Below are positions 2,610-10,590 of a stretch of DNA of 40,068 bases, piece by piece (the first letter of the stretch is position 1; each line of letters begins with the position of its first letter). Made by a program: the position numbers and the translations under genes. The notes under the pieces are model-generated. The model saw only the letters and a list, made by a program, of their open reading frames with translations, was not told the DNA's origin and searched no databases. The stretch spans positions 1 through 40,068 of the forward strand of contig JAPLLI010000086.1 in the NCBI GenBank assembly GCA_026387615.1, in the 5' to 3' direction. The DNA comes from Nitrospirota bacterium (GTDB lineage: Bacteria; Nitrospirota; Nitrospiria; Nitrospirales; Nitrospiraceae).

Positions 2610-2649
2610 AGTTAACAATTCTGTAACAATCCGGTCACCCACTCGTCAC
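2610..2649 (+). promoter_or_regulatory. Candidate Pho box (four half-sites, 11-bp period)
   Basis: Seven-base units begin at 2610, 2621, 2632 and 2643 (AGTTAAC, CTGTAAC, CGGTCAC, TCGTCAC). All end in TNAC and are spaced exactly 11 bp apart. PhoB-type regulators bind 7-bp direct repeats separated by 4 bp, two repeats per dimer, so this would hold two dimers. The downstream genes, a phosphate-type porin and a PstS-like protein, fit PhoB control. The regulator itself is not in this window. Confidence 0.72.
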
Positions 2650-2659
2650 ATCAATCCTT

Positions 2660-2665
2660 GATAGT
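2660..2665 (+). promoter_or_regulatory. Candidate -10 element of the Pho-controlled porin promoter
   Basis: GATAGT (4 of 6 matches to TATAAT) starts 10 bp after the last Pho half-site. That is the spacing seen where PhoB replaces the -35 contact. No separate -35 is visible, as expected for such a promoter. Confidence 0.45.
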
Positions 2666-2750
2666 GCGCTTGGCTATGGCCACGATTCATTGCAACTCGA
2701 CAGATGTCAGGGAGTTTGTCATGGGGCTACAACACAAGGAGGGTGACAGG

Positions 2751-4286
2751 GTGAGCAACACGATACGTCTGAAATCTCGAAGGGGCCTTCTCTTCTCATG
2801 TGCCATGATGATGGCGCTCTGTTCGTGGAGCAATCAGGCTCAGGCGCAAGCGCTGCATTCCACGCCGCCACCATCCAAATCCCAGCCCGTCCTAATGGCT
2901 GCGACCGGGGGAAGTGCCACGGCCTCCTCCTCCGGTGCTCGCTCGGCAGGCCTTTCCGAGTCGCAACCGAGCCAGCTCGAAGATGTGTTGCTCGAAAAGG
3001 GCATCTTATCCATGGACGATTGGGTCCGTATCAAGGCGGAGAGCGAGGCGCGCGCGGCCGAGCAATCGAGCCTGCAGGGGGTGGTGGCCAACCCTCATTG
3101 GTATGAGCGTATGCGCATGCAGGGGTTCGTGCAGACCCGCATGTCGTTTTATGACAATGGCAAGGGCGATCTTTCCCTGACCGATTCGAAGGCGGTGATC
3201 GCTAAGGGAAATGGAATCGGAGCGGTTGGCGGCGGCCAGAAAATGTATTTCCGTCGGATTCGCTTGCCGATTTCAGGGCAACCATCGGAACGGCTGTTCT
3301 TCTTCATCCAGCCTGCCTTCGAAGGTGACGGATATAATACCGGCAATGTGGTGAATCTCGTCGACGCCTTTGCCGACTATATGATCACGAAGGATCAAAC
3401 CTGGCGCCTCCGGTTCGGCATGCAGCGGGCGCTGGTCAGCTTCGATACCCTCAGGACCAGCAGCCAGAGGCAGGAGCTGGACCGCCATGAATCCATTCAA
3501 ACCAGCGCTCCTGGCGAGCGGGATATGGGTATCGCATTATTTTATACGACGCCGGAATCCAAGGCCCGCTATCAAACGATGACCCAGTATCACAACGGTC
3601 CTGGGGACTATGGCAATATCGCATTCCAGATGTATAACGGCCAGGGGCGGAACGCCGTCGACTACAACAAAGACAAACATTTTGCGGGGAAAATATCGTA
3701 CCCATTTGAGCTGCCGAACGGACGGCTCATCGATGTCGGCGCCCATGCCTACACCGGTCTCTGGGATGCCACTGGTGTGACTTCGATGACGACAGGGGCC
3801 ACGCGCTGCAGCCATAGCATCAGCACCGATGGGTTTTGCACGATCAGGGATGAGCGTCTCAGCGCCTATGTCTGGACGCCTCCACAGCCCTGGGGAATCA
3901 TGAGTGAAGCGGTGGTCGGACGGGGTCCTGAACGGGGCTCCGATGGCTTCCTCCGGGAAGCGTCCCTCTATGGAGGCTACATACAGGGAAACTACACCTG
4001 GCGTTATTCAGATACGGGCCTGGTCACTCCCTACGTCCGTTACGGCGAATATTACGGTGGCAGTAAGAACAGCACCTCAGGCGCGAACTATGACAGCAAA
4101 AACGTCAATGCTGGATTGGTCTGGGAGCCAGACACCCATTGGCGCTTTGTGGCGGAATACCTCTTTAAGCATGGCACCAATGCCGCGTCATCTGCCGCCG
4201 ATGAGTCGGCGCTGACATTCGGGCAGAGCCAGCAGGTTTTCAATATGCAGATGCTCCGTCTCCAAGCGCAATGGCTCTGGAACTAA
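2751..4286 (+). CDS. OprP/OprO-type phosphate-selective porin
   Basis: The 511-residue product is an outer-membrane beta-barrel of the phosphate-selective porin O/P family. The chosen GTG start at 2751 has AAGGAGG at 2736-2742, 8 bp upstream; an in-frame ATG at 2721 has no comparable site. A signal peptide (LLFSCAMMMALCSWSNQAQA) is followed by a short linker and a helical stretch (QLEDVLLEKGILSMDDWVRI) typical of the OprP N-terminus. The barrel follows, with alternating aromatic strands (MRMQGFVQTRMSFYDNG, RLRFGMQRALVSF) and a C-terminal aromatic-rich strand ending in LQAQWLWN; the terminal residue is Asn rather than the usual Phe. The Pho box upstream and the PstS-like gene 94 bp downstream support a role in phosphate or other anion uptake under phosphate limitation. 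Whether it selects phosphate, polyphosphate or another anion cannot be read from the sequence. Confidence 0.88.
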   Translation: MSNTIRLKSRRGLLFSCAMMMALCSWSNQAQAQALHSTPPPSKSQPVLMAATGGSATASSSGARSAGLSESQPSQLEDVLLEKGILSMDDWVRIKAESEARAAEQSSLQGVVANPHWYERMRMQGFVQTRMSFYDNGKGDLSLTDSKAVIAKGNGIGAVGGGQKMYFRRIRLPISGQPSERLFFFIQPAFEGDGYNTGNVVNLVDAFADYMITKDQTWRLRFGMQRALVSFDTLRTSSQRQELDRHESIQTSAPGERDMGIALFYTTPESKARYQTMTQYHNGPGDYGNIAFQMYNGQGRNAVDYNKDKHFAGKISYPFELPNGRLIDVGAHAYTGLWDATGVTSMTTGATRCSHSISTDGFCTIRDERLSAYVWTPPQPWGIMSEAVVGRGPERGSDGFLREASLYGGYIQGNYTWRYSDTGLVTPYVRYGEYYGGSKNSTSGANYDSKNVNAGLVWEPDTHWRFVAEYLFKHGTNAASSAADESALTFGQSQQVFNMQMLRLQAQWLWN

Positions 4287-4380: not shown

Positions 4381-5463
4381 ATGAACGTGCAGAATAGGCC
4401 CCAGACAATACTGAAACCATCGGTCCTCGCGGCAGGGCTGATCGTTGCCCTGCTATCAGGGACCGGCTCGACCGCCGGAGCTGAACAGGTGGAACGGATC
4501 ATCCGAGTCGCAAATGTGACCGCCACGGAAGCCTACCAGCCCATGACAGCCGTTGAAGGCCGTCTCTCCATTGCCGGCTCCGACACCATGAGGCCTCTCC
4601 TGGTCAAGCTGGCTGCGGATTTTTCCCGCAACCATCCGAAGGCCAAGGTCGCGGTGGAAGGGGGCGGGTCTTCGCAAGGATTGCGAGAGTTCGTGCTGGG
4701 GCTTTCCGGGCAACGCCGTGGGGACAAAGCGCGCGGCACCGGAACCGAGGGAGCGTCCACTGTCACCGTCTTTGCCTCCTCTCGCGCCTTGAACGAACAG
4801 GAACATGGACATTTCACGTCGCGATTCGGCTATGAGCCGCTGGCGATTCCCATTGCCATGGATGCGGTGGCCATCTACGTTCATGCCAGCAATCCAATTC
4901 CGCACCTCTCGCTTGAGCAGCTCGCGAGCATTTACGGAACTGGCTCGGCATCGCCCCTTACGACTTGGGGCCAGCTCGGCTTGGGCGATCGCTGGAGCCA
5001 AGCGCCGATTGACGTCTACGGCCGTGACAATCGTTCCGGCACCAAGACGTTTTTCTCCGAGCTGGTGCTGCATGGCAAACCACAAAAGTCCACGGTCCTT
5101 GAGGAGCCAGGCTCTGCAAGCGAGGTCTTGACGATTGCCCGCAATCCCTTCGCGATCGGTTATGCCGGAATCGGCTTCAACATTTCCGATATCCGGGTCG
5201 TGCCCTTGGCCAAAACCGATGGTGACCAGGCTGTAGCTCCTACGGCCGAGACGGTGACGACCGGTTCCTATCCCCTGAGCCGGCCCTTGTATTTGTACAT
5301 CAACAGCGACCCGAAGTCGGAGATGCATCCGGTGCTGCTGGAGTTCTTACGCTATGTGAATAGTGCTCAAGGACAGGCGGTCGTGCTGGCGGCGAAAGTC
5401 TATCCATTGCCGCAGACGATTCAGGAGAAAAATCAGACGCTCCTCAAGGCCTTTACGAGGTAG
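4381..5463 (+). CDS. pstS: PstS-like periplasmic phosphate-binding protein
   Basis: The 360-residue product is a type-2 periplasmic binding protein of the PstS family. The ATG at 4381 is preceded by AAGGAGG. The N-terminus is a signal peptide (LAAGLIVALLSGTGSTAGA). Phosphate-binding signatures are visible: LSIAGSDTMRPLL near residue 60 (the first ligand loop), VEGGGSSQGL near 92, and DNRSGTKTFF near 217 (the GR-x-SGT-type loop). The family normally feeds phosphate to PstCAB, but no permease or ATPase gene follows; the next gene is an unrelated lipoprotein behind two strong hairpins. The gene therefore forms a two-gene unit with the porin. It is an orphan binding protein that must use a transporter encoded elsewhere, or act as a scavenging or sensing protein. 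The gene symbol reflects family, not proven orthology. Confidence 0.87.
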   Translation: MNVQNRPQTILKPSVLAAGLIVALLSGTGSTAGAEQVERIIRVANVTATEAYQPMTAVEGRLSIAGSDTMRPLLVKLAADFSRNHPKAKVAVEGGGSSQGLREFVLGLSGQRRGDKARGTGTEGASTVTVFASSRALNEQEHGHFTSRFGYEPLAIPIAMDAVAIYVHASNPIPHLSLEQLASIYGTGSASPLTTWGQLGLGDRWSQAPIDVYGRDNRSGTKTFFSELVLHGKPQKSTVLEEPGSASEVLTIARNPFAIGYAGIGFNISDIRVVPLAKTDGDQAVAPTAETVTTGSYPLSRPLYLYINSDPKSEMHPVLLEFLRYVNSAQGQAVVLAAKVYPLPQTIQEKNQTLLKAFTR

Positions 5464-5563: not shown

Positions 5564-5606
5564 CAGGCTGTTAGACTGTATCCGGTTGACGTATAAGGGA
5601 ATCGAT

Positions 5607-6293
5607 ATGCCGCTTCATGTGACATCGTTCGGAATCGGGCTCCTCGCCGTTCTGTTGCTGGCAGGCTGTGTCACTAATCCTCCGCCGAAAGTCGTCATGG
5701 AAAATGAGGTAACGCGGATAGAAATCCGTACGGACGAGCGGGCCACGCGTCCCCATGCCCATCCCGCGCCCCTCTCGCCTGAGACGATGCGGGCGCTCCT
5801 CAGCGGCATGCGGATTCAAGTGCAGACGGACCGACTTTTCGGTGTGGTGAACGGCTGGTCCGCACCTCGCCCCGTGTTCTCCCAGACGGACCTGGCAGCC
5901 ATCTCCGGGCCGCTGGCTGAAGCCCTGGCGCAGGCAGCCTCACATGAAATCGTGACATTTTATCGGCGGGTCAACGATGCATCGATCGGCCTGGCCTACA
6001 CGACCGGCGGCCTATTCGTACAAGAGGGGCTGGTCTACATGGTTATGGCGAATTTCTGGTCCTTGCCAGTCGATGCGATTGTCCCTGCCGTCCCTGGTTA
6101 CATGATTGATCCCATCGATCAGCCGCTGCTCACGCTTGGACGAAAATTCTACCTGCTCTCCCATAAGCAAGAGCAAGCCGATGTCCACCTCCCCGATTGG
6201 CAAGAGCGGCATCCGGCAGATAAGACCCTGGTCGTGAACCTCTCCCTGCTCCGTCCAGAGAACGGACGTGTCGCCCCCCGCACGAGTCCATAG
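5607..6293 (+). CDS. Lipoprotein of unknown function (228 aa)
   Basis: I do not recognise the family. The ATG at 5607 is chosen because AAGGGA lies 6 bp upstream and because it puts a clean lipoprotein signal at the N-terminus: a hydrophobic segment followed by LLAGC, with the lipidated Cys at residue 21. The mature part has no transmembrane segment and no recognised catalytic motif. Its middle contains a hydrophobic stretch (LVYMVMANFWSLPVDAIVPA) that could pack in a beta-rich fold. The next lipoprotein gene begins 14 bp after this stop, so the two are probably co-transcribed. Position +2 after the Cys is Thr, so by the E. coli rule (Asp at +2 is retained) it would be expected in the outer membrane. 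Confidence 0.8.
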   Translation: MPLHVTSFGIGLLAVLLLAGCVTNPPPKVVMENEVTRIEIRTDERATRPHAHPAPLSPETMRALLSGMRIQVQTDRLFGVVNGWSAPRPVFSQTDLAAISGPLAEALAQAASHEIVTFYRRVNDASIGLAYTTGGLFVQEGLVYMVMANFWSLPVDAIVPAVPGYMIDPIDQPLLTLGRKFYLLSHKQEQADVHLPDWQERHPADKTLVVNLSLLRPENGRVAPRTSP

Positions 6294-6307
6294 CCCTATT
6301 GGGAGCC

Positions 6308-6751
6308 ATGACACTCATATCGAAACGTACAATTCTGAGCTGGATGGCCGTTCTCATGCTGACGGGAATGGTCACCGCTTGCGCGGCCAGTCGCCCAGTC
6401 CCTCCGTCACAGGTCTTGGCAGCGCCTGCGACGACCTCCGAAAAGGCGGCCCCCTACATGGCTGAAGGGACCAGGCATTTTCTGGCAGGCGACTGGAACC
6501 GGGCCTCCCAAGCATTTCAGCAAGCCGTGGTCGCGCAACCGGAATTGGCAGAGGCCCATTACAACCTGGCTGTGTCGCTCGATCACGAGGGAGAAACCGC
6601 CGAGGCGAAGAAACATTACTTTCTGGCTGCGAGCCTCGCTCCGGGAAACAAAATCATCTGGAACGCCCCGCCGCTCCTCGAGGCCGTGAAAGCCAAGCCT
6701 CTTCTAAGAAATCCTCCCATTCAAAAGAATTACCCCGCCGTCGCGTTCTAA
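6308..6751 (+). CDS. TPR-repeat lipoprotein (147 aa), paralogue of the gene at 32569
   Basis: The ATG at 6308 follows GGGAGC closely and gives a lipoprotein signal ending MVTAC, with Cys at residue 25. The mature part contains about two tetratricopeptide repeats (LAGDWNRASQAFQQAVVAQP, then AEAHYNLAVSLDHEGETAEA). It ends in a conserved tail HYFLAASLAPGNKIIWNAPP followed by a short Pro-rich end. The same tail (HYMEAANLAPGNKVIWDAPP) occurs in the product of 32569-32973, so the two are paralogues. TPR lipoproteins usually act as periplasmic or outer-membrane assembly scaffolds; the partner here is unknown. The gene follows the 5607 lipoprotein by 14 bp, which suggests joint expression. Confidence 0.82.
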   Translation: MTLISKRTILSWMAVLMLTGMVTACAASRPVPPSQVLAAPATTSEKAAPYMAEGTRHFLAGDWNRASQAFQQAVVAQPELAEAHYNLAVSLDHEGETAEAKKHYFLAASLAPGNKIIWNAPPLLEAVKAKPLLRNPPIQKNYPAVAF

Positions 6752-6911
6752 CGTCATCCCTCTTAGAAGTTATTCGCCACCACGCCTCTTCTGCTGGAAG
6801 GCTATTTTCTTGTCCGATAACGGCCTAGACGATATAGTGGCCGCTTTACCGCCGGATTGCCGTTCTCCGGCTCGAAGACACTCACGTCGTTACATGAGAG
6901 CAGGAGAAGGT

Positions 6912-7604
6912 ATGACCCGATCGAGACTGTTAGCCCTCAGCCTAAGCTGCAACGTGTTGGTCGCAAGCATCCTGTTGATCGGCTGGGTGGCCCCGAATGT
7001 GAAGACCACGTTCAACCCCGACGTCGATGTGCCGGTCATTGCTAAGACCGCGCGCATCCACCCGCTCGGGGCGGTCAGTGGCTCGACCGTCATCGGTGAG
7101 CACGTGTTTGTCGCTCCTGGGGCATCAGTTCGCGGGGACGAAGGAGAACATATTTTCATTGGCGATAACAGTAATGTGCAGGATGGCGTCGTCGTGCACG
7201 GACTTGAGACGTTCGAAGGCGGCCATGAGCTACTTGAAAACGAAGTGGAAGTCGAGGGGAAGAAGTACTCCGTCTATATCGGGCAGCGAGTCTCGTTGGC
7301 CCATCAATGCCAGGTCCACGGTCCTGCCAAAGTTGGCAACGATACCTTCGTAGGAATGCAGTCGTTCGTATTCAGGAGCGAGGTTGGAGAGCACGTTGTG
7401 ATCGAGCCGGGAGCGAAACTGATCGGTGTCAAAGTCCCCGCAGGGCGCTATGTGCCAGCCCTCTCCCTCATCACCAAACAGGAGCAGGCCGACGCCTTAC
7501 CCAAGATCTTCGAGGGCTATACCTATCAGAAGCTCAATGAAGGGGTCGTGCGGGTCAACGTGCAATTGGCAGATGCCGGGCAGCCGCTACCAATCACTCG
7601 ATAA
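6912..7604 (+). CDS. cam: Cam-type gamma-class carbonic anhydrase, exported or membrane-anchored
   Basis: The 230-residue product is a left-handed beta-helix carbonic anhydrase closely resembling the archaeal prototype Cam. It interconverts CO2 and bicarbonate. The three metal-binding histidines appear as H96 (VVVHGLE), H131 (SLAHQ) and H136 (QVHGP). The assisting residues are also present: R74 and E77 in SVRGDEG, N88 and Q90 in SNVQDG, E99 after the first His, and an acidic loop (GGHELLENEVEVEG), which CamH proteins lack. The ATG at 6912 has AGGAGAAGG just upstream. It starts a hydrophobic N-terminal segment (LSCNVLVASILLIGWVA) that would export or anchor the enzyme, placing activity in the periplasm. 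In an autotroph this could supply inorganic carbon or set local pH. The gene stands alone, 160 bp after the TPR lipoprotein gene. Confidence 0.92.
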   Translation: MTRSRLLALSLSCNVLVASILLIGWVAPNVKTTFNPDVDVPVIAKTARIHPLGAVSGSTVIGEHVFVAPGASVRGDEGEHIFIGDNSNVQDGVVVHGLETFEGGHELLENEVEVEGKKYSVYIGQRVSLAHQCQVHGPAKVGNDTFVGMQSFVFRSEVGEHVVIEPGAKLIGVKVPAGRYVPALSLITKQEQADALPKIFEGYTYQKLNEGVVRVNVQLADAGQPLPITR

Positions 7605-7922: not shown

Positions 7923-8189
7923 TTACGCGACGAACGTGGTCGAGAACAGCGTGTACTCAAATCGATGTCGTCGAAGGACAACTTTCTTGCATCGGGCGAG
8001 GGCGTCGACGCGGTGAAAAATTTGATTCCAGCTATATTCCGGCATGAGACAGACGAGCGAGTCCAGCGTGATGACGGTCTGCTCCTCGAGATGGTCGAGG
8101 ATGGTTGCCGTGAGCATATCGGCAGATGAACGCCCCAATCGTGAGGAATAGACATCCGGCCCTGATTCAAGCAGTACGCATGTCGGCAT
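7923..8189 (-). CDS. Small unknown protein (88 aa), possible winged-helix fold
   Basis: I do not recognise a named family. The ATG at 8189 is preceded by AGGAGGT with about 4 bp spacing, so it is well translated on sequence grounds. The product is soluble and ends in a basic, hydrophobic strand pair (KKVVLRRHRFEYTLF). The order of predicted elements is helix (ADMLTATILDHLEEQ), a TLDSLVCLMP helix, then SWNQIFHRVDALARC and a beta wing. This resembles a small winged-helix module, but that is inference. It is the last gene of the minus-strand run, 21 bp after psiE, and could regulate that operon. Confidence 0.72.
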   Translation of the reverse strand: MPTCVLLESGPDVYSSRLGRSSADMLTATILDHLEEQTVITLDSLVCLMPEYSWNQIFHRVDALARCKKVVLRRHRFEYTLFSTTFVA

Positions 8190-8210
8190 AAAGACCTCCT
8201 GGTGAAAAAA

Positions 8211-8726
8211 TTAGGGACATGATGATCCCGGTTGACTGGCCTGTTGTGCCACCGATGGCGGCGCCGGGCTGTATCGGATGGCCACGACGCGCATGAGCCC
8301 CAGCGTAATGACGATGCCGCCCAGTATCGCGAATTGATGCCACTCCCCGCCTGTGAACCATCGGGAAATGATCTCCGTCAACATGACGACAAGGACCGTA
8401 TCCACGATAAAGGTGACGCGCACGCGCCCGTCTGAACAATAGGTCAGCGTCGTCCGCAAAACTTCCACCACGGCAAGCAAGGTGAGCGCATCGACGATGA
8501 TGTGCCGAAGCGCGACTTCAAGATCCGTGGAGAGGAGCAGTCGCAGGTCGAGAAACGTTTTGACGACCCCACCTGCCAGACCAAGGAGGATCGTCAGGGT
8601 GAGCAGGCTTAGAATGAATCGCGTGCCAGCCTCCCAGACACGCGTGAAGTCATAGTCCGTGAGCATGAGAATAAATCGCTTGGGCCAGCCGCTCGGTAGA
8701 GTCTGTGTCATGGAAATTTGGGTCAT
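8211..8726 (-). CDS. psiE: PsiE-family membrane protein
   Basis: The 171-residue product has four hydrophobic segments and the family's conserved core around VVEVLRTTLTY and TFIVDTVLVVMLTEII, matching the phosphate-starvation-inducible PsiE family (PF06146). The role of PsiE is unknown; in E. coli its gene responds to phosphate limitation and cAMP-CRP. The ATG at 8726 lies 4 bp after the stop of the 41-residue upstream gene, so translation is probably coupled; a second in-frame ATG at 8711 is possible. The Pro/Ser/Gln-rich C-terminal tail is not conserved. Its place behind a candidate Pho box (9632-9660) agrees with the family's name. The likely location is the inner membrane. Confidence 0.82.
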   Translation of the reverse strand: MTQISMTQTLPSGWPKRFILMLTDYDFTRVWEAGTRFILSLLTLTILLGLAGGVVKTFLDLRLLLSTDLEVALRHIIVDALTLLAVVEVLRTTLTYCSDGRVRVTFIVDTVLVVMLTEIISRWFTGGEWHQFAILGGIVITLGLMRVVAIRYSPAPPSVAQQASQPGSSCP

Positions 8727-8730
8727 CTTC

Positions 8731-8856
8731 CTATTCGTGCCTCGAAAACATATTGCGGAAATCCCGGCCGATTGAAACGATGAATAGCATGGCGCCGACC
8801 ACGAGCGTGAGTTGCGCGCCCAGGGCAAAGAGTGAGTTGAAGAGATCAAGTGCCAT
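8731..8856 (-). CDS. 41-residue single-pass membrane microprotein
   Basis: The ATG at 8856 has AAGGGGG about 10 bp upstream. The product has a short amphipathic start (MALDLFNSLFALG), one hydrophobic segment (LTLVVGAMLFIVSIG) and a basic tail (RDFRNMFSRHE), giving a likely N-out, C-in single span. It lies exactly between the CBS gene and psiE, 52 bp after the former and 4 bp before the latter. An in-frame ATG at 8919 would extend it into the end of the CBS gene but lacks a ribosome-binding site. It may be a small subunit of a PsiE complex. No known family is recognised. Confidence 0.62.
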   Translation of the reverse strand: MALDLFNSLFALGAQLTLVVGAMLFIVSIGRDFRNMFSRHE

Positions 8857-8908
8857 GTCTGCGAATCCCCCTTCATGTGACAGATCCTGTACCGTGAGCC
8901 ACGAACGC

Positions 8909-9292
8909 TTAAAATTCATCGATGGATACCGGGTGCAGCAGGTCGCGCACCGATAAAATCCCCACAATCGAGTTGTCCTTGAGCACCGCCAAATGGCGGG
9001 TCCCATGCCGCTCCATCAGATCAGCCGCGTCCGTCACAGACCGGCGGCCGTCGATGCCGATGACGGGGCTGCTCATGATGTCTTCCACCGGAATGCCATA
9101 GGGCACTCCGTCTACTCCGACGACTTTCCGGACAATATCCGGCTCCGTCACAATGCCGACGATACGGTCCTGCTCCAGCACAAATACACTTCCGATTTTG
9201 TGATTCTTCATCAGTTTCGCCGCATCAATGGCTGAGGTGCCGGCTTCGACATTGACCATGTGGCGAGTCATGAGCCGATCAACGGTGATCAT
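8909..9292 (-). CDS. Tandem CBS-domain protein (127 aa)
   Basis: The product is essentially a Bateman module: two CBS domains at about residues 8-62 and 72-125. Each has the typical DAAxLM helix (IDAAKLMKNHKIGSVFV; VTDAADLMERHGTRHLAVL) and the GIVTEPDIVRK or GILSVRDLL end. Such pairs bind adenine nucleotides and gate partner proteins, often transporters. The ATG at 9292 overlaps the stop of the upstream gene as ATGA and has AAGGGAGG upstream, indicating translational coupling. The open frame continues further upstream, but that part is out of character for a protein and overlaps the preceding gene. Inference: it senses energy state for the membrane proteins encoded on either side. Confidence 0.88.
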   Translation of the reverse strand: MITVDRLMTRHMVNVEAGTSAIDAAKLMKNHKIGSVFVLEQDRIVGIVTEPDIVRKVVGVDGVPYGIPVEDIMSSPVIGIDGRRSVTDAADLMERHGTRHLAVLKDNSIVGILSVRDLLHPVSIDEF

Positions 9293-9597
9293 AGGGCCTC
9301 CCTTGGTTGTGTGACTGTGGTTGGGTTCACGTCGATATGGTGATCGACAGACGATGCGCAATGGGGGCAGAGGACGGCCTCTATCGTTCGGACCGAGGCG
9401 ATCATTGTGGTGAATTGTTGTCCTGTCTGTACCCGAAGAAGAGGGACGATGACTCGTGCCCGCATGGCCAGTAATGTCTGAATGGCCCGCACGATTGGCG
9501 CGGCGAGCAAGAGCGTGACTACGAGTACGAACAGATAGGCGTCTGGGTTCTTCATCACTTGCTCCAGGGTTGAGGTAACCGGGTTCTGCATCTTCAT
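9289..9597 (-). CDS. Membrane-anchored small protein with a CPHC motif (102 aa)
   Basis: I do not recognise the family. One strong transmembrane segment spans about residues 20-38 (YLFVLVVTLLLAAPIV). It is followed by a basic region (AMRARVIVPLLRVQTGQQF) and a C-terminal CPHC pair at residues 77-80, like half of a zinc ribbon. The ATG at 9597 has AAGGTAG upstream; the ATG at 9591 is an alternative. It is the first gene of the five-gene minus-strand run and its stop overlaps the CBS gene start. Dimerisation through a shared metal site is possible but unproven. Confidence 0.75.
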   Translation of the reverse strand: MKMQNPVTSTLEQVMKNPDAYLFVLVVTLLLAAPIVRAIQTLLAMRARVIVPLLRVQTGQQFTTMIASVRTIEAVLCPHCASSVDHHIDVNPTTVTQPREAL

Positions 9598-9631
9598 GTG
9601 CAGCTACCTTACCGGCGACACATTCCAGTTG

Positions 9632-9660
9632 AGTCAATTCCCTGTAAACTATGTGTAAAT
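9632..9660 (-). promoter_or_regulatory. Second candidate Pho-type box (three half-sites, 11-bp period)
   Basis: On the minus strand the units ATTTACA (9660-9654), GTTTACA (9649-9643) and ATTGACT (9638-9632) repeat every 11 bp, each with a TNAC core like the array at 2610-2649. They lie 35 bp upstream of the first start codon of the psiE operon. The match to the PhoB consensus is weaker than at 2610 and no good -10 follows at the expected distance. Confidence 0.45.
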
Positions 9661-9812: not shown

Positions 9813-10052
9813 CTACTTCTCCCGTTCGATCAGCCGCCAGCCTTCTTTTTGGACGCAACGTTCCGTGGCATTAAGAAGGAGTACCTGCAAGCCCTGCTGC
9901 AGCTTAGGGTCTCGTGAAACATCTTGCTGGCATTTATTGTAATCGCTCGTGAACGCATCCCCTGGCTTATTGGGATGAACCCATTCGGTTGAGGAGCAGG
10001 CAGTGAGAAGGAATCCAACCACGACCAGAGACCATCCTGAGATCTTACGCAT
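9813..10052 (-). CDS. Small lipoprotein of unknown function (79 aa)
   Basis: The ATG at 10052 is preceded by GAGGAGG. The N-terminus is a lipoprotein signal (WSLVVVGFLLTAC) with Cys at residue 19. The mature 61 residues contain two more cysteines (YNKCQQDV and TERCVQKEGW), which could form a disulfide in the periplasm. The spacing resembles small bacterial lipoproteins with a C-x(n)-C-x(2)-KEGW pattern, but no function is known. It is monocistronic, with a possible promoter at 10086-10115. Confidence 0.8.
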   Translation of the reverse strand: MRKISGWSLVVVGFLLTACSSTEWVHPNKPGDAFTSDYNKCQQDVSRDPKLQQGLQVLLLNATERCVQKEGWRLIEREK

Positions 10053-10115: not shown

Positions 10116-10283
10116 GCAAGCAAGCCGCCTCGCTCTTCCGGATTAGCAAACGAACCAGGGGGGCTGGATGAGAGATGCCGCCAGATGGCAAGCAGACAAT
10201 CGCACCACACAACAGATGAAGAATTGGATCAATAACTCACGTTTATGCGCAATAGCTAAACCGTCACATGACCAACCCGTTCG

Positions 10284-10289
10284 TATAAT
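10284..10289 (+). promoter_or_regulatory. Perfect -10 hexamer upstream of the 80-residue gene
   Basis: TATAAT lies 58 bp before the ATG at 10348. No good -35 is present at 16-18 bp, so another factor or an extended contact would be needed. Confidence 0.35.
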
Positions 10290-10347
10290 TGTCGCAGCCA
10301 GCTGGGTCTGTTACCCTGCGACGTCGAAGGCACGAATGGGAGGCCCC

Positions 10348-10590
10348 ATGACAGCTGTTGACGCACTCATGCTGGAAGCGAAGCAGGCGATCATGGAAGA
10401 GCATCATCACCGCTTCCAAACCCTCCGACAGGAAGGGCGTTGGGGGGAAGCCCTCCAGCAAGTTCACGTCACCCTGAGCTGTGCCACCGATCTACTCAAT
10501 GAGTCGCTCCGGGTCCTGAACGACTCACTCGATGGTCGCAACGGCAGGCCAGACGAGCCGACGACCCCTCCGGCAACCGGCCATCAATAA
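10348..10590 (+). CDS. Short unknown protein (80 aa)
   Basis: The ATG at 10348 has GGGAGG 4 bp upstream; an in-frame ATG at 10336 is possible. The product is soluble and mainly helical: a first helix (VDALMLEAKQAIMEEHHHRF), a second with a TPR-like tone (LRQEGRWGEALQQVHVTL), then LLNESLRVLNDSLDG and a polar tail. No named family is recognised. The perfect TATAAT at 10284 and the in-frame composition support expression. It precedes tRNA-Thr by about 95 bp. Confidence 0.6.
   Translation: MTAVDALMLEAKQAIMEEHHHRFQTLRQEGRWGEALQQVHVTLSCATDLLNESLRVLNDSLDGRNGRPDEPTTPPATGHQ

Follow-up and report, generated by a model that had tools for sequence, protein, structure and literature searches.

The locus raises the question of whether five small, tightly packed genes, one of them encoding a protein of the PsiE family, form a defined system that serves the cell under phosphate limitation, as a sequence-only reading of the DNA had suggested when it proposed a nucleotide-gated membrane complex behind a Pho-like box. 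The window, meaning the whole stretch of 40,068 bases that we analyzed, is an entire contig (C234) of a Nitrospira-type genome, in a 2.64-Mb assembly that is 89% complete, and its PsiE is 92% identical to that of N. lenta, the nearest named relative in the search. All five genes lie on the minus strand and were recovered with the packing that had been described for them. Gene A (9597-9289) encodes a single-transmembrane (TM) protein of 102 aa, or more likely 100 aa, as translation probably begins at the second ATG (9591), which relatives retain; gene B (9292-8909; 127 aa) overlaps it through an ATGA and encodes a CBS pair, or Bateman module (Pfam CBS, 2.5e-25). A gap of 52 bp leads to gene C (8856-8731), a single-TM microprotein of 41 aa, and one of 4 bp to gene D (8726-8211; 171 aa), the PsiE family member (PF06146, 34.2 bits versus a Pfam gathering cut-off of 23.9), after which 21 bp that hold an AGGAGG precede gene E (8189-7923; 88 aa), a predicted winged-helix protein. 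For A, C and E no significant Pfam family was found. Hydropathy placed a single TM segment in each of A and C, about four in D and none in B or E. No gene had a median Ka/Ks of 1 or more (B and D about 0.12, A 0.44, C 0.31 and E 0.28) and the same order recurs in relatives, so these are real genes and not chance open reading frames. An Rfam scan of the region returned no match, and signals in a promoter and terminator scan were not above chance level.

Evaluating gene content across relatives revealed that the set is far from fixed. When the 64 PsiE proteins of a tree were labelled according to neighbouring genes, 16 loci held ABCDE, 4 ABDE, 3 ACDE, 24 DE, 4 BDE, 10 BD and 3 D by itself, and we therefore rejected a fixed five-gene system, with the full arrangement present in 16 of 64 loci and A, B and C each missing in several lineages. 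The conserved order that had been proposed as a check holds within a Nitrospira clade and fails as a fixed set over the 64 loci. Since A, B and C vary in presence from locus to locus, none of them is obligatory, and the absence of a CBS gene beside PsiE in 30 of the 64 loci (the DE, ACDE and D classes) means that this partner is not indispensable unless it is encoded elsewhere. The usual Nitrospiraceae unit is PsiE plus E, and CBS-PsiE is the pair common to Nitrospiraceae and their sister family, where the two genes are adjacent or overlapping. Gene A is lineage-specific and C was found in two subclades, while three loci (L006, L009 and L010) have lost the CBS gene and carry a truncated A. The CxxC emphasized in the sequence-only reading, CPHC in A, is confined to one subclade, and as it is missing in another we rejected it as an essential feature. 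In one metagenome-assembled genome a frameshift, either an assembly error or a sign of decay, splits the CBS gene (L007, 3562-3965).

The three TNAC units at an 11-bp period that had been reported ahead of the operon are present as three TTNAC units at 9633-9659 (minus strand), in a Pho-type box (TTTACACATAGTTTACAGGGAATTGAC) built of TTTACA, TTTACA and TTGAC with CATAG and GGGAA between them. The exact TTNAC triplet has a single match in the 2.64-Mb genome, and the reversed-pattern control has 0. Upstream of A, the box is aligned and conserved in 14 relatives, and TTTAC-N6-TTTAC-N6-TTNAC is the best-conserved segment of the 15-locus alignment; a more distant subclade has two perfect TTAAC units and one degenerate third. 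We tested the box by pattern searches of genomes and by scoring retrieved loci as positions matched of 12. Exact-pattern searches of 32 genomes of the genus gave 27 sites against 5 for the reversed-pattern control, with 15 of the 27 ahead of the PsiE cluster (one of these, L055, lies at a contig end and was assigned through its neighbour gene) and 4 ahead of pstS. A further 40 loci were sampled across genera by their PsiE match, irrespective of context, 31 from Nitrospiraceae and 9 from the sister family, and 26 of the 31 had an upstream box of at least 10/12 (background 5%). In a separate test the same was true of 29 of 40 distinct pstS upstream regions, or 25 of 36 when the four that came from the pattern search itself are left out. 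Length-matched random windows reached this score in 2.8% of cases, and among 165 pstC, pstA, pstB and phoU genes a single one did; all of these counts come from upstream sequences of related genomes, which are non-independent samples. The box was mostly absent from the sister family, where 1 of 9 loci reached 10/12. A second, weaker box (10/12) lies in the window at 2612-2638 (plus strand), directly ahead of the porin gene that opens the convergent operon, and a comparable 10/12 box precedes the porin in L096. In the genome G008, four exact TTNAC triplets lie within about 54 kb (C8:166000-224000), one before pstS, one just past a PhoB-type regulator gene and the rest before unrelated genes.

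The surroundings of the cluster connect it with phosphate uptake. On the plus strand of the window, and convergent with the cluster, the boxed phosphate operon begins with a porin O/P-type gene (2658-4286; PF07396, 1.1e-21), followed by a gene for a PstS-type phosphate-binding protein (4381-5463; PF12849, 2e-39; TIGR02136, 1.1e-51, below the curated cut-off). Beyond it on this strand lie a lipoprotein-like gene, lipo235 (5586-6293), and, as convergent neighbours of the cluster, genes for a TPR protein (6299-6751) and a gamma-carbonic-anhydrase-like protein (6810-7604). Homologues of lipo235 adjoin CBS-PsiE divergently in the sister family (L154-L157, L159 and L173-L175). In relatives the cluster usually adjoins and converges with pstS-pstC-pstA-pstB-phoU (L012, L016, L091, L096, L098 and others), and PhoU, PstS-type, permease and ABC domains were confirmed in these operons. 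The retrieved stretch included pst genes in 21 of 31 Nitrospiraceae loci (within 2 kb in 17 of the 31) and in 6 of 9 sister-family loci, and the position opposite the cluster is filled by two dissimilar types of pst operon. CYTH-CHAD genes, which are frequently linked to polyphosphate, lie close to some of these loci. N. lenta (L003) carries pstC-pstA-pstB-phoU between its TPR and carbonic-anhydrase genes, where the window has 58 bp (6751-6810); the window genome retains the boxed porin/PstS-type operon without pstC-A-B-phoU at the N. lenta position. Because no true PstA or PstB was found in the assembly (89% complete), the window lineage may have lost its high-affinity Pst transporter. On the other side, upstream of the box, a 79-aa lipoprotein-like gene (9813-10052, minus strand) and a small open reading frame (10168-10590, plus strand) keep their positions in many relatives.

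The Pho-like character of the box is backed independently, because such boxes recur ahead of pstS and of the porin gene and because the cluster adjoins pstSCAB-phoU. Promoter and locus alike give a Pho link strong support, much more than the sequence-only reading could offer. Since the operon adjoins phosphate-uptake genes and shares their control box, it very probably belongs, as judged from sequence, to the phosphate-starvation response of Nitrospira. The candidate regulator is of the PhoB type, which occurs in 30 of 32 genomes and once in the window genome (G000 C45:7176-7844), with a match to TIGR02154 at 2.6e-71; these PhoB-like proteins fall below the curated PhoB cut-off. In L140 about 1 kb separates the box from a PhoB-type gene that diverges from the cluster. 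An orphan OmpR/PhoB-type DNA-binding domain, with no receiver seen, is encoded in L092 (3316-3636, minus strand), divergent from pstS and with a TTNAC box of its own at 3806-3832.

We next consider the proteins themselves. Protein B has two CBS domains whose nucleotide-contact motifs, G-h-h-T-x-x-D and G-h-h-S-x-x-D, are kept in 45 homologues with one S-to-A change, and a conserved tail, HPVSIDEF in the window, follows the second domain; because the motifs are nearly invariant, a nucleotide-sensing CBS partner for PsiE is plausible. Alignment of D revealed invariant residues at E88, G100-R101, D109, E118, W123-F124 and R146. Its AlphaFold model, built from 27 sequences, was of low confidence (pLDDT 61, pTM 0.28) and was not used for a fold search, and we found no solved structure related to PsiE. 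A second PsiE-family gene of the window genome (L108; G000 C12:23951-24331) lies outside any such cluster. Protein E was modelled as helix-helix-helix-hairpin (mean pLDDT 72.6, about 76-87 in the ordered part), and its Foldseek neighbours were mostly winged-helix proteins, for example of the ArsR and MarR types, with a best E of about 0.01, so that E is predicted to be a winged-helix DNA-binding-type protein, a fold that the sequence-only reading had not recognized. Diverged paralogues of E occur in the window genome (L028, L029 and L030), and one of them directly precedes a phosphoribosyltransferase-like gene.

Many of the PsiE domains from other classes of Nitrospirota sit inside open reading frames of about 300 aa. 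We rejected the idea that these are CBS-PsiE fusions, as those checked (L187-L190 and L192) are protoglobin-PsiE fusions with an N-terminal protoglobin (PF11563) ahead of PF06146, both over the cut-off. One fusion was compared with solved structures, and its best match was 2w31, the globin of Geobacter sulfurreducens (1.9e-34). A CBS-pair gene lies beside globin-PsiE in 4 of 15 retrieved loci (L187-L201), on the same strand in 2, and no pst genes were detected near the fusions. These globin fusions and neighbouring CBS pairs are the best hint that PsiE is an output or effector under cytoplasmic sensors.

Comparison with known systems separates what is familiar here from what is new. The psiE gene of E. 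coli stands alone. It is a Pho-regulon gene of unknown function that belongs to the same PF06146 family and, as predicted for the window gene, is under Pho-type control, in its case by PhoB and CRP (PMC4415409), whereas psiE of the window lies beside phosphate-uptake genes of the pst type and shares its operon with genes for a CBS protein, a winged-helix protein and small membrane proteins. Pho boxes are direct repeats with an 11-bp design (PMC4415409), and the Nitrospira box resembles those of PhoB and PhoP in its direct repeats at this period ahead of pstS but differs in its TTNAC unit, in its three copies and in having a candidate regulator only. The globin-coupled sensor of G. sulfurreducens, whose globin domain was solved as 2w31, has a C-terminal membrane domain, and in the other Nitrospirota a 2w31-like globin similarly precedes PsiE, which forms the membrane domain; unlike these, the window PsiE has no protoglobin domain and a separate CBS gene instead. 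Protein B, whose nearest solved chain is PH0107 (2yzi), shares with other Bateman subunits its two CBS domains and their intact nucleotide-contact motifs, and is unlike them in being encoded next to PsiE. A PsiE family member also belongs to the multi-gene island known as the locus of heat resistance or tLST, there with different partners (ClpK, sHSP, KefB, Trx and DegP) and with neither a Pho box nor a pst context mentioned in the available portion of the source (PMC7010813). Within the literature searched we found no paper on PsiE paired with CBS or protoglobin and no description of a phosphate regulon for Nitrospira.

From the computed evidence on gene order, selection, box, locus, CBS motifs and winged-helix prediction, we infer the following course, to which regulator identity, complex formation, nucleotide gating and transport or signalling activity belong as its proposed parts. 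When phosphate is limiting, a PhoB-type response regulator would bind the three 11-bp repeats, about at the position of the -35 element, and would switch on the operon jointly with the opposite pstSCAB-phoU, or in the window genome with the porin/PstS-type operon. PsiE would be the central product, a four-TM inner-membrane effector with conserved charged residues that may alter ion or phosphate handling or signal to the Pst/PhoU/PhoR machinery. CBS modules regulate several channels and transporters by adenine nucleotides, and the cytoplasmic CBS-pair subunit would probably tune PsiE activity to such nucleotides. E would probably be a dedicated regulator or adaptor, perhaps in feedback, and A and C would be optional single-TM accessory subunits in one clade. 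A nucleotide-gated PsiE complex is in our view reasonable, given the retained CBS contact motifs and an old pairing of CBS with PsiE, though inferential, and the proposal as a whole, a Nitrospiraceae Pho-regulon operon with PsiE as effector, a CBS subunit, E as regulator and A and C as accessories, has about an even chance of being right. More tentatively, and with somewhat less than an even chance, PsiE may be a general sensor-gated effector, a four-TM pore or transducer with a fused protoglobin or a separate CBS protein, whose CBS version, with a winged-helix partner, was wired into the Nitrospiraceae Pho regulon.

Other explanations bear on different parts of this proposal. The genes could be Pho-regulated without forming any complex, with PsiE active alone and the CBS protein, A, C and E merely sharing its promoter; the repeated loss of A, B and C while PsiE persists would fit this, as would CBS homologues near pstS without PsiE (L046 and L052-L054), yet CBS and PsiE genes are adjacent or overlapping in two families and CBS pairs recur next to globin-PsiE in further lineages, and we regard such a loose arrangement as rather unlikely. 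It is likewise doubtful that PsiE and E regulate Pho signalling through PhoR, PhoU or Pst, E acting in transcriptional feedback, instead of forming a route for ions or solutes. The tight convergence of the cluster with phoU, the predicted winged helix of E and a PsiE that seems too small for a classical transporter all speak for it; against it, PsiE is also encoded at sites remote from pst and, in fusions to globin sensors, with no pst gene detected nearby.

Quite improbable, finally, is that the box serves a different OmpR-type regulator or another stress response, with the proximity of pst incidental and PsiE a membrane protein of general stress. In its favour, Nitrospira has numerous OmpR-type regulators, and the E. 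coli locus of heat resistance encodes and expresses a PsiE (PMC7010813); against this, pstS has the same box, far above both background and the internal pst genes.

While psiE is already known as a Pho-regulon gene, the partner set of this probable Pho-regulon psiE operon is new. The CBS pair, the winged helix and, elsewhere in the phylum, the globin fusions offer a concrete and testable idea of how PsiE may be controlled, and the TTNAC triplet would provide a Pho-box definition for Nitrospira, a nitrifier genus.
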